This document shows positions 8,276 through 14,119 of a stretch of 64,000 nt of DNA, piece after piece. The notes under the pieces are model-generated. The model was not told the origin of the DNA and did no database searches. It saw only the letters and a list, made by a program, of their open reading frames with translations. Each line of letters starts with the position of its first letter. The first letter of the stretch is position 1. Location: contig JAJRXX010000057.1 in assembly GCA_024276075.1 (NCBI GenBank), forward strand, positions 1-64,000, in the 5' to 3' direction. This DNA is from Planctomycetota bacterium (GTDB lineage Bacteria > Planctomycetota > Phycisphaerae > Phycisphaerales > Phycisphaeraceae). Position numbers and translations under genes: made by a program.

Positions 8276-9499
8276 CTACCCCGCGACCTGATCCAACGCG
8301 TCGAGCAGGGTGTTCAGGTCGTCGTCTGTGTTGAATGGCCCAGGGCTAATACGCACCGCGCCCGACGGTGACGTCCCCATCACACGATGCGCATACGGCG
8401 CACAGTGCAGACCCGGCCGAACCGCAATGTCAAAGCTATCATCCAGGATCGACCCCACGTCGGACGCCTCGTACCCCTCGATGTTCAGCGACACCGTCCC
8501 GACGCGCCGCGATACGTCCTCGCTACCATATACCGTAAACCGTTTGTCATCGACAAACCGCTCAATGATCTTCGCCACCATCGCGCGTTCGTGTTCGAGC
8601 CCCTTCTCGATCCCCTGCTTGTTCAAATACGCCACACCCGCCGCTAATCCCGCGATCCCGACTGTATTAGGTGTGCCCCCCTCGAGGTAATACGGGTACA
8701 CCAGCGGCTGTGTCGGGCTCGACGAATCGCCACCTGTTCCACCCTCGCGCCATGGTCGCAACCTCGCCGACCGCGCCACGACCTGGTCTGTGTAGCCCGT
8801 TTCGTGTGTCGCCGCCACTGTCTCGGCAGGCTCCGGACAACGCGGGCCCACGTACAGACCACCCGTACCCGTGGGACCCAGCAGCGACTTGTGACCCGGA
8901 AACGCCAACAGGTCGATCCCCATCTGCTGGATCGAGATCGGCACCACACCGGCGGTCTGAGCCGCGTCCAGACAAAACAACACGTCGTGTTCCCGCGCGA
9001 TTGCCCCCACCGCTGAAGCATCTTGGATCGTGCCCAGCACGTTCGACGCGTGCGTGATCACGATCAGCTTTGTCGTAGGTTGGATCGCTTTACGGATGTC
9101 GTCTGGATCAACGAATCCGTCCTTATCGCAACCGACGCGCGTCAGCTCGATCGCACCGCCGTCAGCCAGCGCCTGCAAGGGCCTGCTCACCGAGTTATGC
9201 TCGAGCACCGTCGTAATCACGTGCTGACCACCCCGTACATCCGGGTCCAACACGCCCTTGATGGCCATATTTAGCGCATCCGTACCGTTGAGCGTGAAGA
9301 TCATGCGTGCCGGGTCCTGACCTCCCAGTAGCCGAGTCAGCTTTAGCCTGGCATCGTCGATCATGCGCTCCGCAACGACGGCCATCCGGTGTCCCGCCCT
9401 ACCCGGGTTCGCCGCATCCTGCGCTAGGAACGCGCTCATCGCCTGAGCCACGCCCGGCGCCTTGGGAAAACTCGTTGCCGCGTTATCAAGGTAAATCAC
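8276..9499 (-). CDS. class V aminotransferase / cysteine desulfurase family protein
   Basis: This 407-residue protein starts MIYLDNAATSFPK, as in SufS/IscS-type PLP enzymes. The PLP lysine is in FPGHKSLLGPTG (about residue 204). The catalytic-loop cysteine is in RPGLHCAPYAH (about residue 366), the motif of the short-loop SufS-like 'cysteine desulfurase family'. Such enzymes remove sulfur from cysteine to form an enzyme persulfide for thiocofactors or carrier proteins. It is the last gene of the minus-strand run that starts at the SAM riboswitch, about 100 bases after a DinB gene. It could supply sulfur to the MoaD/ThiS-like carrier of that run; this is inference from position. Confidence 0.9.
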   Translation of the reverse strand: MIYLDNAATSFPKAPGVAQAMSAFLAQDAANPGRAGHRMAVVAERMIDDARLKLTRLLGGQDPARMIFTLNGTDALNMAIKGVLDPDVRGGQHVITTVLEHNSVSRPLQALADGGAIELTRVGCDKDGFVDPDDIRKAIQPTTKLIVITHASNVLGTIQDASAVGAIAREHDVLFCLDAAQTAGVVPISIQQMGIDLLAFPGHKSLLGPTGTGGLYVGPRCPEPAETVAATHETGYTDQVVARSARLRPWREGGTGGDSSSPTQPLVYPYYLEGGTPNTVGIAGLAAGVAYLNKQGIEKGLEHERAMVAKIIERFVDDKRFTVYGSEDVSRRVGTVSLNIEGYEASDVGSILDDSFDIAVRPGLHCAPYAHRVMGTSPSGAVRISPGPFNTDDDLNTLLDALDQVAG

Positions 9500-9601: not shown

Positions 9602-10099
9602 CTACACGCTGCCCATGCCCTGCACTCGGCGCCAAGCGCTGAGTTGGCCCAAGTGCGTCGCCTCGTGCAGCGCCATCAGGTACACCAGTACCGCCCCGAC
9701 CGATGGGAAGTAGTTCTTCCACCGCTCGAGTGTGACCGGGCCGTCCAAGAAACCCGCGGATGCCGCTTGCAGCGCCGCCTTCGCCTCTTCGTGGCCACGG
9801 ACGAACGCGCCCACCAACTCGTCCTTTGCGGGGTATACCGACGCGTCCGCCTCCGGCTTTGACAGCATGCCGAACCGGTGCTTCCTCGGGTCCCTGAACG
9901 TTTCCCCTTTCGCCAGGGACACGATCACCGGGTGGTAGGCGTTGAGGTGCCCCAGCACCCACGCCGGGTGGTTCATCCCGATAGCGGGCTGATGCACCAT
10001 CCGATCGCCCGGCACATCGGCGACCAGCTTCTGCGCATAGTCCAGATTCTTGTCCCAGCTATAGAGCAGAAACTCCACCACCGCCGCTTGATCACTCAT
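9602..10099 (-). CDS. DinB-fold protein, copy 2
   Basis: This 165-residue four-helix DinB/YfiT-like protein carries the metal-site histidines of the fold: GHL in NHPAWVLGHLNAYH, and the HExxH-like HEATHLGQL near the C-terminus. The superfamily includes bacillithiol and mycothiol S-transferases and other metal-dependent enzymes, but many members have no known reaction. It ends WRRVQGMGSV, nearly the same as the neighbouring copy (WRSAQGMGSA), so the pair arose by duplication. It lies in the sulfur operon, 44 bases after copy 1. An ATG one codon earlier (10102) is also possible. Confidence 0.85.
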   Translation of the reverse strand: MSDQAAVVEFLLYSWDKNLDYAQKLVADVPGDRMVHQPAIGMNHPAWVLGHLNAYHPVIVSLAKGETFRDPRKHRFGMLSKPEADASVYPAKDELVGAFVRGHEEAKAALQAASAGFLDGPVTLERWKNYFPSVGAVLVYLMALHEATHLGQLSAWRRVQGMGSV

Positions 10100-10142
10100 C
10101 ATTTTTCCCGTCGATGATTAAAATACGCCCGCTCAACCACGA

Positions 10143-10634
10143 TCACATCCCAAGCGCCGACCCCATCCCTTGCGCGCTGCGCCAGGCCATGATCTGACCC
10201 AGGTGCATGCCTTCGTGCCCGGTCATTAATAACAATATAAAATCCCCGACCGTCGGGAACATCGGCCGAATCTCTTCCATCGGCAGCGGCTGGTTCAACA
10301 CCGAATCCGGTGCGTCTTCATAAGCCTTCGCCAAAGCCGTGTGCCCCTGTTCGAGCGCCTTCACAAGCACCGTCTTGTCGGGGTACTTCGACCGGTCAGC
10401 CGTTGGCGTCGTACCGAAATTAAACATCTCTTCCCATTGCGACGCGGCTTTCCCTTCCTGCCCCAGCATTTTACACGCGTTGTCACACGACAGCGCCAAG
10501 TGCCCCAGTACCCACGCCGGGTGGTTCTTTATGCCTCCGGGCTGCTCGCACATCTTCTGGTCCGGCACATCTTCGACGGCCTTATTCGCATACATCAAAG
10601 TAAAACCAAACGCGTTGAGAACACTTTTCTTCAC
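10143..10634 (-). CDS. DinB-fold protein, copy 1
   Basis: This 163-residue DinB/YfiT-like protein has GHL in NHPAWVLGHLALS and HEGMHLGQI near the C-terminus, the expected metal-binding histidines. The start is set at GTG 10634 because AAGGAG lies 7-9 bases upstream; a longer frame to 10754 overlaps moeB and looks non-coding. It is paralogous to the next gene and lies 97 bases downstream of the E1-like gene. A thiol S-transferase or metal hydrolase role is suggested by the fold and by the operon, but is not proven. Confidence 0.85.
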   Translation of the reverse strand: MKKSVLNAFGFTLMYANKAVEDVPDQKMCEQPGGIKNHPAWVLGHLALSCDNACKMLGQEGKAASQWEEMFNFGTTPTADRSKYPDKTVLVKALEQGHTALAKAYEDAPDSVLNQPLPMEEIRPMFPTVGDFILLLMTGHEGMHLGQIMAWRSAQGMGSALGM

Positions 10635-10731
10635 AAGAACTCTCCTTAATGACCAACTGTTTATGACGAACAACCGCAGACACATATATACACAAGTCAC
10701 TGCACCGCTCGTCTTATTCCCTTTTTCCCGC

Positions 10732-11823
10732 CTACGCGCCCACGTATTTCGCATAGATACTCTTGGCTGTTTTCGCTTCTTTTGTCCCCTTCACAATCGC
10801 CCTGCCGTCCGTGAACAACGTCAGCTCGTACTGCTGACCGTTGTCCTTGATATCCGCTCGGAGCATAAACTTGCTGGCTGTCACCGTGCCGTGCGCACGC
10901 AGGCGTTCGGCGATCCGGTCGAAGTCGAGCTTCCCATTCGCGCCCGTCGGCTGTGATAGCTGCACCGCGTTGCGCCCGCACAGCGTCGTCGTCGCGCTGG
11001 AATACTTGCCCTCGAGGTGCTCAAACCGACGACCCTTGCAACACACACATTCCCCTACGTCGTACGCACGGCGGACCTTAAACTGCTTGACCGTATTCGA
11101 CCACGTGTCGATGCTCAGCATCGTCGGGCACACCGCGTCCCAGTTGCCCGTAAGCACCTTGAGCGCTTCGCTCACCTCGTAACTCGAAATAATCGACACC
11201 ACCGGCGCTAAGACACCCGCTGTCTCGCACGTCGGGTTCATCCCCGGCGGAGGCGCCTGCTCGAAGATGCACCTCAGGCAAGGCGTCGCCACGCCCGCAC
11301 GCTCCCATGGCGAATCGCCCGTCGGCGTATGAGGCAGGATCGCATACGTCATGCCCACCGTGCCCACCGCGCCGCCGTAGATGTACGGGATGCCCAGCTT
11401 CACCGCGCAGTCGTTGGCCAAAAACCGCGTCTCAAAATTATCCACGCCGTCGATGATCGCGTCGCAACCCTCCGCCAACTTTTCTATGTTTGCGTGGTTG
11501 ATGTCGTCGATGACGGCTGTGACCTTGACCTGCGAGTTGATCTGCTCAATCCTCCTGCGAGCCGCCTCGGCTTTGGGGATCGCGTCCTTCACGTCCTGCT
11601 CGTCGAACAGCACCTGCCGCTGGAGGTTCGTCATCTCGATGAAGTCGCGGTCCGCGATAACGAGGTGCCCGACACCCGCGCGAGCTAGCAGGTTGGCGAT
11701 CACCGTGCCCAGCGCGCCGCAGCCGAGCACGAGCACTTTCGATGCCAACAGCTTCCGCTGCCCGTCCTCACCGAATCCGGGTAGCAGCATCTGGCGATGA
11801 TAGCGAGAAAGGTCTTGGCTCAT
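10732..11823 (-). CDS. moeB: MoeB/ThiF-family E1-like adenylyltransferase with extra C-terminal domain
   Basis: This 363-residue enzyme is expected to adenylate the C-terminal glycine of a ubiquitin-like sulfur carrier. The ATP-binding GCGALG is at residues 34-39, LQRQVLF near 67-73 is the conserved arginine region, and zinc cysteines are at 182/185 (PCLRC) and 259-262 (CVCC). The candidate catalytic cysteine is Cys199 (NPTCETAGVL). In place of the rhodanese domain of some relatives there is a domain of about 95 residues (268-363) with LTLFTDGRAIVKGT. It overlaps the NIL-domain gene by 4 bases (ATGA), implying translational coupling, and its likely carrier partner is the MoaD/ThiS gene two genes upstream. 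Confidence 0.9.
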   Translation of the reverse strand: MSQDLSRYHRQMLLPGFGEDGQRKLLASKVLVLGCGALGTVIANLLARAGVGHLVIADRDFIEMTNLQRQVLFDEQDVKDAIPKAEAARRRIEQINSQVKVTAVIDDINHANIEKLAEGCDAIIDGVDNFETRFLANDCAVKLGIPYIYGGAVGTVGMTYAILPHTPTGDSPWERAGVATPCLRCIFEQAPPPGMNPTCETAGVLAPVVSIISSYEVSEALKVLTGNWDAVCPTMLSIDTWSNTVKQFKVRRAYDVGECVCCKGRRFEHLEGKYSSATTTLCGRNAVQLSQPTGANGKLDFDRIAERLRAHGTVTASKFMLRADIKDNGQQYELTLFTDGRAIVKGTKEAKTAKSIYAKYVGA

Positions 11824-12074
11824 CCCGCCACCAAACTCCCGCCCTCGACCGGGTCCACCTTGACGCCTAGCTCGACGAGGTACCGTAGCGCTTCTTCCAC
11901 GCGGTCCGGCTTACCCGTGAACAACACAGCCATGACACCGATGTCCTTCTGCACACTCGCCTGACGGATATCAAACGACACGTCGGGAAACTTCGTGGCT
12001 GTCTTCCACAGACAGGGCTCGTTCTGACGGCCGCTCTCGAAAGTTAGCCAACATTTGCGTTTGATCTTGTCCAT
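11820..12074 (-). CDS. NIL-domain protein
   Basis: This 84-residue protein is a stand-alone NIL domain: a beta strand KRKCWLTFE, then FDIRQASVQKDIGVMAVLFTG, then VEEALRYLVELGVKVDPVEGG. NIL domains occur at the C-terminus of methionine ABC transporter ATPases (MetN), and fused to ferredoxins in an archaeal/bacterial homocysteine-forming pathway. Methionine or homocysteine is therefore a reasonable ligand. It sits between the sulfur carrier and its E1 enzyme and overlaps the latter by 4 bases. The domain alone has no catalytic motif; it may be regulatory or a sulfur-transfer accessory. Confidence 0.8.
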   Translation of the reverse strand: MDKIKRKCWLTFESGRQNEPCLWKTATKFPDVSFDIRQASVQKDIGVMAVLFTGKPDRVEEALRYLVELGVKVDPVEGGSLVAG

Positions 12075-12144: not shown

Positions 12145-12426
12145 TTATCCACCCGCGATCGCCGGCACCAGCGACAGCTCATCGCCCGGCTTCAACGCGG
12201 TGTCCAGGTCTTCGAGGAAACGGATGTCCTCGTCGTTTACGTACACGTTAATGAACCGATTGATCTCCTGCTGCTCGCTGAACAACCGCTTGCCCAACTC
12301 CGGGTATCGGCTCGTGAGCGATCCGAGCACCTCACGCACCGATGAGCCCGTCGCCGCGATCGTCTCCTGGTCTTCCACCTGCGGCCGAAGGGCTGTGGGG
12401 ATCAATATTTTTACACCTTCTGACAT
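12145..12426 (-). CDS. MoaD/ThiS-family ubiquitin-like sulfur carrier
   Basis: This 93-residue beta-grasp protein ends in PAIAGG, the free Gly-Gly tail that E1-like enzymes adenylate and sulfurate. The segment FINVYVNDEDIRFLEDLDTALKPGDELSLVPAIAGG is typical of the MoaD/CysO group. Because the tail is already exposed, no protease is needed to mature it. The gene lies between the threonine-synthase-like gene (38-base gap) and the NIL gene, like the carriers in CysO/HcyS-type amino acid sulfuration pathways. MoaD for molybdopterin is the alternative, but no other moa gene is present. Confidence 0.9.
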   Translation of the reverse strand: MSEGVKILIPTALRPQVEDQETIAATGSSVREVLGSLTSRYPELGKRLFSEQQEINRFINVYVNDEDIRFLEDLDTALKPGDELSLVPAIAGG

Positions 12427-12464: not shown

Positions 12465-13739
12465 CTAGGCCGTCACCGGCGGACGCGGCGAACCTCCGGA
12501 TGGTACCTCGGCGATCTGCTGGACAATCTTGTCAAACTCAGCGAGCTTCGCGTCGATCACCGGAGACTGGGCAAACTGGTCCTGCATCACCTCGACCGTC
12601 TTGAGCCCGTTGCCCGTAATACACACACAGATCGTCTCGTCTCGCGGAATGCGCCCCGACTCGATCAGCTTCATCGCGCACGCCAGAGTCGTGCCTCCCG
12701 CCGGCTCGGTAAAGATGCCCTCCGTCCTGGCTAGCAGCTTCACCGCGTCGAGAATCTCACCGTCGCTGGCCGAAGCGCCGTACCCGCCGGACTGATTCAC
12801 GTCATTGACCACATAGTAGCCGTCCGCGGGGTTTCCGATGGCGATGCTCTTGGCGATCGTGTGCGGCTTCTGAGGCTTAAACAGGTTCAAGCCACGCTCG
12901 ATCGCGTCCACCACGGGATTGCACCCCTGCGCCTGAGCCGCGTACACACGGGGCTCGTTGTCATCCACCAGCCCGAGTGTGATCAGCTCTTGGTATGCCT
13001 TGTACACCTTCGGCAGCAGCGTCCCGCCCGCCACCGGCACGACCGTGTGCCGCGGCAGCCGCCAGCCCAATTGCTCGCCGATCTCGAAGCCGTGGGTCTT
13101 GGCGCCCTCGGTATAAAACGGGCGCAGGTTCACGTTAACAATCGCCCAGTTGTATTTGTCGGCAATCTGGCTACACAAGCGGTTTACGTCGTCGTAGTTG
13201 CCCTTGATCTTGACCATGCGTGGGCCGAACACCAGCGATCCGACGACCTTGCCCTCCTCCAAGTCGTGAGGAATCATCACAAACGATCGCAGGCCCGCCG
13301 CCGCCGCGTGCGCCGCCACGCTGTGCGCTAGGTTCCCCGTCGACGCGCAGCCGACGGTGTCGAACCCAAACTCTAATGCCTTTGTCAGCGCCACCGCCAC
13401 GACACGGTCCTTGTACGAAAACGTCGGGTAGTTCGCGCTGTCATCCTTGACGTACAACTCGCGCACGCCCAGTTCCTTGGCTAGGTTGTCCGCTTTGATC
13501 AAAGGGGTCATCCCGGACCGCAGGCCCACACGCGGCTCACCTTCGATCGGAAGCAGGTCCCGATACCGCCACAGTGACCTCGGGCCCGACTCGATCGACG
13601 CCCGTGTCACCTTCCCGCGCATTGCTTCGTAGTCGTATGCCACCTCCACGGGGCCGAAGTCGTTGTCACAGATCGTGCGCGGCTCGATCGGGTACTGCGT
13701 CCCGCATTCCTTACACTGAAGGCTATGGACAAAACTCAT
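12465..13739 (-). CDS. thrC: threonine-synthase-like PLP enzyme (possible homocysteine synthase)
   Basis: This 424-residue enzyme has an N-terminal zinc-ribbon-like segment (LQCKECGTQYP), then a fold-type II PLP domain with the lysine in FSYKDRVVAVAL (about residue 110), CASTGNLAHSVAAHAA, a glycine-rich PVAGGTLLPK, and TEPAGGTTLACAMK. It matches enzymes annotated as threonine synthase (O-phosphohomoserine to threonine). However, the lysine region is SYKDRVV rather than the classical SFKDRGM. A SAM riboswitch precedes it and a sulfur carrier follows, suggesting sulfhydrylation to homocysteine. ATG 13739 has AGGAG 6 bases upstream and is preferred to the TTG two codons earlier. Confidence 0.85.
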   Translation of the reverse strand: MSFVHSLQCKECGTQYPIEPRTICDNDFGPVEVAYDYEAMRGKVTRASIESGPRSLWRYRDLLPIEGEPRVGLRSGMTPLIKADNLAKELGVRELYVKDDSANYPTFSYKDRVVAVALTKALEFGFDTVGCASTGNLAHSVAAHAAAAGLRSFVMIPHDLEEGKVVGSLVFGPRMVKIKGNYDDVNRLCSQIADKYNWAIVNVNLRPFYTEGAKTHGFEIGEQLGWRLPRHTVVPVAGGTLLPKVYKAYQELITLGLVDDNEPRVYAAQAQGCNPVVDAIERGLNLFKPQKPHTIAKSIAIGNPADGYYVVNDVNQSGGYGASASDGEILDAVKLLARTEGIFTEPAGGTTLACAMKLIESGRIPRDETICVCITGNGLKTVEVMQDQFAQSPVIDAKLAEFDKIVQQIAEVPSGGSPRPPVTA

Positions 13740-13860
13740 GACCAACTCCTAACCGTAACAGTGCTTAATGACACCGTCATCGCTGCTCTGACAGCCTAGG
13801 CAGGCTTCCTAAAACCGCAAACTATAAGAAGGGGCTTGGGTTCCGAAGTGGAATTTCAGC

Positions 13861-14023
13861 CGCTTCTTATCTGCCCCCGCTGATTCCCCGTTATGCCGCA
13901 TTTATTAAATGCAGCACACGGTCAACGCAGGAGGGATTTCGCACCGGTTCCCCATTTTGATCGCTTGGGGCGGTTGCGGTGGCGTCTTCGGGCCCGTCCC
14001 TCAGCCACTCTGGATAAGTCGCG
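13861..14023 (-). promoter_or_regulatory. SAM-I (S-box) riboswitch controlling the thrC-moaD-NIL-moeB run
   Basis: Read on the minus strand, the region shows the S-box core in order. P1 5' strand CTTATC is at 14018-14013. It is followed by CAGAGTGGC, GAGGGACGGGCCC, GAAGACGCCACC, GCAACC, a variable stem, GGTGCGAAATCCC, a P4 hairpin (GCATTT/AAATGC), and the P1 3' strand GATAAG at 13871-13866. P2 is GTGGC/GCCAC. Downstream, CTTCTTAT (13831-13824) can pair with ATAAGAAG (13870-13863), which includes the P1 3' strand, giving a competing helix as expected for a switch. SAM binding should lower expression. Confidence 0.9.
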
Positions 14024-14045: not shown

Positions 14046-14073
14046 ACTCTAGCCGTCTAAATCAGCAAGTCAA
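14046..14073 (-). promoter_or_regulatory. candidate promoter of the riboswitch operon
   Basis: On the minus strand TTGACT (14073-14068) and TAGAGT (14051-14046) are separated by 16 bases. Transcription would begin roughly 15-20 bases before the riboswitch P1 stem, the spacing expected for an aptamer near the 5' end of its mRNA. Confidence 0.55.
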
Positions 14074-14101: not shown

Positions 14102-14119
14102 CAAGCAATTAATTGCTTG
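14102..14119 (-). terminator. palindromic hairpin downstream of rpsG
   Basis: A perfect 18-base palindrome, CAAGCAATTAATTGCTTG, lies 30 bases after the rpsG stop. On the minus strand it is followed by TTTGGTTGTTG. It may end the rpsL-rpsG transcript just before the riboswitch promoter. The AT-rich stem and imperfect T-run make it a weak call. Confidence 0.45.

Follow-up and report, generated by a model that had tools for sequence, protein, structure and literature searches.

A SAM-I riboswitch before a threonine-synthase paralogue and a proposed sulfur-carrier-dependent homocysteine route in Planctomycetota

In 2011, Krishnamoorthy and Begley reportedly described a protein-thiocarboxylate route to methionine in Wolinella succinogenes, in which the PLP enzyme belongs to the MetY (Cys/Met) family. 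Cysteine is made by Mycobacterium tuberculosis via CysM, CysO and Mec+. For homocysteine, PMC5764234 describes a HcyBio (DUF39) route using NIL/ferredoxin, and there at least one further homocysteine pathway is said to be still to be found. No paper connecting homocysteine with both a ThrC paralogue and a sulfur carrier was found in the open literature, most of the subscription literature lying outside this search. The locus presented here is carried by a 64 kb stretch of DNA from a planctomycete (hereafter the window, meaning the whole stretch that was analysed), where a SAM-I riboswitch precedes a gene for a threonine-synthase paralogue (named ThrC2 below) and a set of sulfur-carrier genes. 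The riboswitch is an ordinary further member of the known SAM-I family, and it is the gene set under its control which is unusual. This operon is probably a SAM-I-repressed homocysteine route, in which carrier-bound sulfur and activated homoserine would be joined by ThrC2, and in which the terminator of the window's leader would have decayed.

The aptamer and its expression platform

A first-pass annotation made from the sequence alone had read this region as a SAM-I riboswitch on the minus strand, and the Rfam covariance search agrees, with RF00162 (SAM-I) matching 13899-14020 on that strand at 52.0 bits (E 4.6e-9; gathering cut-off 44.4 bits). This is the sole Rfam match above cut-off within the 64 kb, and a single SAM-I was detected in the window's genome (G000; assembly of 2.88 Mb, 95.8% complete). 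The Rfam alignment stops at 13899 and sets the 3' strand of P1 (13906-13899) ahead of its true position, because P4 is enlarged; that placement was discarded, since positions 13871-13866 fold together with the full P4. The four-way junction P1 to P4 is present in the fold of 14022-13864 alone (-63.7 kcal/mol, z -3.1), where P2 occupies 14008-13979, P3 13978-13940 and the long P4 13935-13874, while in the folds P1 is made of the 5' strand CUUAUC (14013..14018) and the 3' strand GAUAAG (13866..13871), all on the minus strand. As the 3' strand of P1 falls at 13871-13866, the true aptamer spans approximately 14020-13866 (minus strand), RF00162 covering 14020-13899 and the extent to 13866 being taken from the fold. 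Binding of SAM by this aptamer is predicted. A promoter-like site (TTGACT, 16 nt, TAGAGT; 14046..14073, minus strand), identified by consensus match only, lies 26 nt upstream of the aptamer, two such sites having been found in the scanned stretch where 0.3 were expected. Just upstream of it, after rpsG, there is a terminator-like hairpin (14102-14119) with a short T-rich tail.

The downstream pairing that had been claimed for the leader was located as an 8-bp helix between ATAAGAAG (13870-13863) and CTTCTTAT (13831-13824). Its 5' strand, AUAAGAAG (13863..13870, minus strand; from folds and shuffles), is of the antiterminator type and overlaps P1, and the opposite strand, CUUCUUAU (13824..13831, minus strand; from folds and the leader comparison), is an anti-P1 arm homologous to the 5' arm of the relatives' terminator. 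P1 and this alternative helix had also been described as mutually exclusive, and this holds in the folding model, in which both use the 3' strand of P1. When the leader was folded with and without P1 constrained, as had been proposed, the free fold reached -115.7 kcal/mol and the P1-forced fold -109.8 kcal/mol: in the full leader the alternative helix is stronger and P1 is lost, and forcing P1 costs about 6 kcal/mol. In folds made length by length, P1 yields to the alternative helix when about 199 nt have been made. Among 2000 dinucleotide shuffles, 0.65% had, in the 122 nt that follow, a stretch able to pair with the P1 3' region over 8 bp of Watson-Crick type; when G-U pairs are allowed this rises to 14.7%, and by that measure only 24 of 53 family leaders reach 5%. 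Taken alone, the helix of the window is thus only moderately unlikely by chance, and what makes it credible is mainly its homologues, in which the same CCCCTTCTTAT block makes up the antiterminator/terminator 5' arm. Taken with the RF00162 score and the folds, the homologous arm in relatives supports the reading of the element as a SAM-I riboswitch with a P1-competing helix.

The leaders preceding ThrC2 were compared in 37 genomes of the class (the window's included) and in 20 named loci, giving 57 leaders which include near-copies, and in three of which (G073, L102, L118) P1 was missed by the search pattern. At a score threshold of 16, set by the author without a shuffle control, 41 of the 57 have an intrinsic terminator, and in 37 of these its 5' arm overlaps the anti-P1 arm, which is the classical S-box layout. 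The typical terminator, GCCCCTTCTTATC..GATGAGAAGGGG followed by T's, is seen for instance in L103, L105, L106 and L111; L113 (CP087563.1) also has a terminator. In the window, CCCCTTCTTAT is kept at the same aligned place, while the 3' arm of the terminator and the T-run are gone. A terminator after the anti-P1 arm was sought there in three ways and none was found, so that the missing strong T-run noted in the first-pass annotation was seen again in the terminator searches. The terminator is also absent at this place in L151 and L112, and the search gave no SAM-I for L102, which of the named relatives is nearest to the window (87% in ThrC2). Judging from the aligned leaders, the platform of the window would be a derived, degraded version of the relatives' classical terminator layout, and, in the author's reading, terminator and riboswitch may have been lost stepwise within the small group around the window. 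Repression in the window may then use a weaker read-out than a terminator, or may be in the course of being lost.

A different outcome, which we regard as possible though doubtful, is that the riboswitch of the window acts on translation, the SAM-bound P1 leading to a structure in which the Shine-Dalgarno region is buried. A Shine-Dalgarno-like AGGAG is seen in the sequence at 13746..13750 (minus strand), before the ATG at 13739, and the leader of the window is without a terminator. In the folding model, forcing P1 lowers the unpaired probability of two Shine-Dalgarno G's from 0.45 and 0.30 to 0.07 and 0.06, and that of the A of AUG from 0.62 to 0.16, which is weak evidence for such a mode. 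However, the predicted pairing partners lie within the first part of the coding region, or in the leader ahead of the anti-P1 arm, rather than in the freed arm itself; none of the compared relatives was shown to use a translational mode, and L102, in which no riboswitch was detected, fits plain decay equally well.

The operon and the ThrC2 group

Genes for the ribosomal proteins S7 and S12 lie upstream of the riboswitch operon, whose members are all on the minus strand. Its first gene (12465..13739; PF00291, 217 bits) scores above the cut-off of the threonine synthase family (TIGR00260, 277.4 bits against 167.1), its nearest solved structures are threonine synthases (E 2.4e-57), and its score against cysteate synthase, which is related to ThrC, is weak. 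As the window's genome, which has five PALP genes, contains a second threonine synthase (L035; TIGR00260, 237.6 bits), the window gene is a paralogue, here named ThrC2 and proposed to be a homocysteine synthase. It is followed by a MoaD/CysO-like sulfur carrier of the ThiS family (12145..12426; 93 aa; PF02597), whose C-terminal end PAIAGG carries the GG tail. The nearest solved structures of this carrier are 4n6e_B (71.2 bits) and 3dwg_C (70.5 bits), and CysO of M. tuberculosis is among its solved relatives. Further on are an 84-aa NIL-domain protein (11820..12074; PF09383, 39 bits), a ThiF/MoeB-type E1 adenylyltransferase (10732..11823; PF00899, 242 bits), two DinB_2 proteins (10143..10754 and 9602..10102; both PF12867) and a cysteine desulfurase family protein, the proposed sulfur source (8276..9499; PF00266, 275 bits; TIGR01977, 408 bits). 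Two DinB_2 proteins, as here at 9602-10754, are also seen in the ThrC2 operons of other genomes, in families f1 and f8.

ThrC2 forms a group of its own. In a tree of 57 proteins, 30 ThrC2 rows fall on one side of a branch with a support of 99/100, several of the outgroup rows being long and of unsure placement, and 20 columns are near-fixed differently between 87 ThrC2 and 34 ThrC rows. Among these columns are five positions conserved in ThrC (numbering of the Thermus thermophilus enzyme) at which ThrC2 has another, fixed residue: 88 (T to L), 155 (S to N), 157 (N to R), 160 (R to Y) and 187 (G to A). They also include two cysteines, C189 and C273, that are invariant across ThrC2. R206 and Y209 are likewise conserved in ThrC2, and the PLP lysine motif is retained. 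The normal substrate of threonine synthase is O-phosphohomoserine, and some of the changed positions presumably bind its phosphate; if they do, the substrate of ThrC2 may not be O-phosphohomoserine.

The remaining steps towards methionine are in part recognizable in the window's genome, which has homoserine dehydrogenase, MetH and a proposed homoserine kinase (TIGR02535, 473.5 bits; cut-off 446.3). There is no MetX, MetA or HcyBio (PF01837) match in this genome, and the best PF01053 match (9.3e-9) is near the level at which its own cysteine desulfurase cross-matches (1.8e-7). Four genomes, the window's as well as G039, G053 and G131, gave no match to Prok-JAB (PF14464), which leaves the release of a carrier adduct without explanation there. 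In family f10, the gene between ThrC2 and MoaD was considered as a homoserine kinase and set aside, being without a Pfam match.

Linkage and distribution of ThrC2

Of 150 genomes surveyed within the class, 63 gave a SAM-I match and 43 a ThrC2 orthologue, orthologues being called from 490 bits upwards (the next-best match scores 253), a cut-off chosen after seeing the tables. SAM-I lies directly upstream of ThrC2 in 42 of these 43 genomes, 35 of them identified by the locus search and seven by coordinates (G024, G033, G085, G108, G126, G138 and G144). The single exception is G061, whose ThrC2 gene is likely cut by a contig end, since the match starts only at residue 73. Among the 21 genomes with SAM-I and without ThrC2, 19 have the riboswitch within about 0.5 kb before a MetX or PF01053 gene. 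At G095:C24:33531-33635 and G112:C51:10016-10120, SAM-I was seen with no ThrC2, MetX or PF01053 nearby. Second SAM-I copies with no query protein matched nearby were observed in two genomes (G060:C1:71292-71394 and G070:C25:54221-54322). Two genomes, G103 and G120, have two SAM-I/ThrC2 units each (L065/L070 and L090/L091); their assemblies, each with about 4% contamination, may be mixed.

The presence of ThrC2 is complementary to that of the MetX/MetY-type genes. It occurs in 33 of the 36 genomes poor in PF01053, i.e. lacking MetY/MetB/MetC-type enzymes (best E above 1e-20, a limit also chosen after seeing the tables), vs 10 of the 114 others (Fisher 6e-21, with genomes counted as independent and shared descent ignored); by the same kind of test, the exchange between ThrC2 and PF01053 inside the four families having ThrC2 gives 2.6e-4. 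MetX was found in 6 of the 43 ThrC2 genomes vs 65 of the 107 others, and MetA in one genome out of 150 (G097, family f8), which is without ThrC2 and has MetA beside a PF01053 gene. Six ThrC2 genomes also have MetX and a strong PF01053 match (G039, G053, G143, G016, G041 and G092), and three genomes have neither ThrC2 nor a strong PF01053 match (G054, G094 and G114), therefore the exchange is not strict. MetH is present in 41 of the 43 ThrC2 genomes. A JAMM-type protein (Prok-JAB, E of 1e-12 or below, a limit likewise chosen after seeing the tables) was found in 36 of the 43 vs 19 of the 107 others, and HcyBio (PF01837) in 6 of the 150.

Scanning named genomes yielded 61 loci, 51 of them with a ThrC2 match above 300 bits. 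The carrier is found in 50 of these 51, in 49 cases within 300 nt and on the same strand. The record labels include Planctomycetota/Phycisphaeraceae, Nitrospirota, Nitrospinota, Dadabacteria, Omnitrophota, Deltaproteobacteria and one Actinomycetota, among others; the Aquificota loci considered as carriers of the system were dropped, their matches being to ordinary ThrC only. Gene order in L121 is homoserine dehydrogenase, TusA, ThiF, ThrC2, carrier, NIL, ThrC, proposed homoserine kinase and aspartokinase, and MetH adjoins ThrC2 in L143. SAM-I was found in 3 of the 15 scanned ThrC2 loci from outside Phycisphaerae, mostly non-Planctomycetota (L142, L149 and L150), and in 14 of 16 further loci, the exceptions being L102 and L120. 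The carriers (n=82) end exactly in GG in 52 cases, in GG plus 1-8 residues in 23 and in longer tails in 7, three of which are NIL-like fusions. In these three, carrier and NIL-like tail (named by eye) share one frame with AGG at the joint (L149:6279-6794, L150:1827-2342 and L125:5704-6228), and a protease would therefore have to expose the GG.

Proposed route, alternatives and known systems

We propose that cysteine supplies the sulfur, which would reach homocysteine by way of the carrier. Loading of the carrier at its C-terminal glycine, presumably as a thiocarboxylate, would be the work of the cysteine desulfurase and the E1. ThrC2 would then transfer the sulfur to an activated form of homoserine, O-phosphohomoserine being the likeliest, and MetH would methylate the resulting homocysteine. 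When SAM is plentiful, the riboswitch would repress this operon for the methionine precursor: P1 would form upon SAM binding and free the anti-P1 arm, which in the relatives would build the intrinsic terminator. When SAM is scarce, the alternative helix would form and the operon would be on. A homocysteine synthase is suggested because of the SAM-I linkage, the exchange with MetX/MetY-type genes, the presence of MetH and the homoserine branch, and the set of carrier, E1 and desulfurase. We incline to the view that ThrC2 and its MoaD-like carrier form a new homocysteine synthase system, using O-phosphohomoserine and carrier-delivered sulfur instead of sulfide or cysteine, which as judged from gene content and alignments would be spread over Phycisphaerae-type Planctomycetota, Nitrospirota, Nitrospinota, Dadabacteria and others, filed as plain threonine synthase.

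The kinship of the carrier with CysO of M. tuberculosis raises the question of whether ThrC2 could instead be a cysteine synthase of the CysM/CysO kind, making cysteine from O-phosphoserine and the carrier thiocarboxylate, with SAM-I as an indirect link through sulfur economy. The weak cysteate synthase score of ThrC2 points the same way, as do the CysK/CysM-like genes found near ThrC2 in L140, L142, L146, L148 and L150, although these neighbours would be redundant if ThrC2 itself made cysteine. Moreover, ThrC2 exchanges with MetX/MetY-type genes and occurs in aspartate-family operons, and other PALP genes of the window's genome (labelled by eye) could make cysteine, which renders this alternative unlikely. 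It is in our view quite improbable that ThrC2 is an ordinary threonine synthase under SAM control, with a carrier that supplies sulfur for e.g. tRNA or molybdopterin and with hosts that are methionine auxotrophs or use another route. The TIGR00260 score above cut-off and the nearest solved structures are in line with such a role, whereas the second ThrC in the window's genome, and the ordinary ThrC that stands beside ThrC2 in Nitrospirota loci (e.g. L121), argue against it. So do the ThrC-conserved positions that are changed and fixed in ThrC2, the retention of MetH in nearly all ThrC2 genomes and the near-constant linkage to SAM-I.

Should the homocysteine synthase proposal hold, it would give several phyla, mostly uncultured ones, a way to make homocysteine; Aquifex is not covered by this, since the related Aquificota loci held only ordinary ThrC. 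It would also add a carrier-dependent branch to the aspartate family and make a single phosphorylated intermediate the branch point of threonine and methionine synthesis in bacteria. As annotation presents the ThrC2 set as a threonine synthase with some odd sulfur-carrier genes alongside, automatic tools can take its hosts for methionine auxotrophs. The riboswitch alone matters little in this respect, its value being that of a pointer to the function of the operon.

Compared with the SAM-I (S box, RF00162) leaders described so far, the window has the same aptamer core, P1 to P4 and P1-competing helix, and a similar control of a sulfur amino acid operon may be assumed; it differs in its enlarged P4 and in the loss of the terminator 3' arm and T-run, which are present in most relatives. 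With the route of W. succinogenes it would share the use of a sulfur carrier, an E1 and, in many relatives, a JAMM-type protease for the formation of homocysteine, while the PLP enzyme is here a PALP threonine-synthase paralogue and not of the MetY type, and the window's genome is without a Prok-JAB match. The CysM/CysO/Mec+ system likewise combines a CysO-like carrier ending in GG and a PALP-family PLP enzyme of fold type II, but ThrC2 is nearer to ThrC than to CysM and is linked to the control of methionine, not of cysteine. A NIL-domain protein is involved as in the HcyBio (DUF39) route, although HcyBio itself is absent from the window's genome, the NIL protein consists of nothing but the 84-aa domain, and the homoserine-pathway genes are present. 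Finally, ThrC2 has in common with ThrC (TIGR00260) a family score above cut-off and the PLP lysine motif, and is set apart from it as a separate clade, with conserved positions changed and a second ThrC encoded in the same genome.
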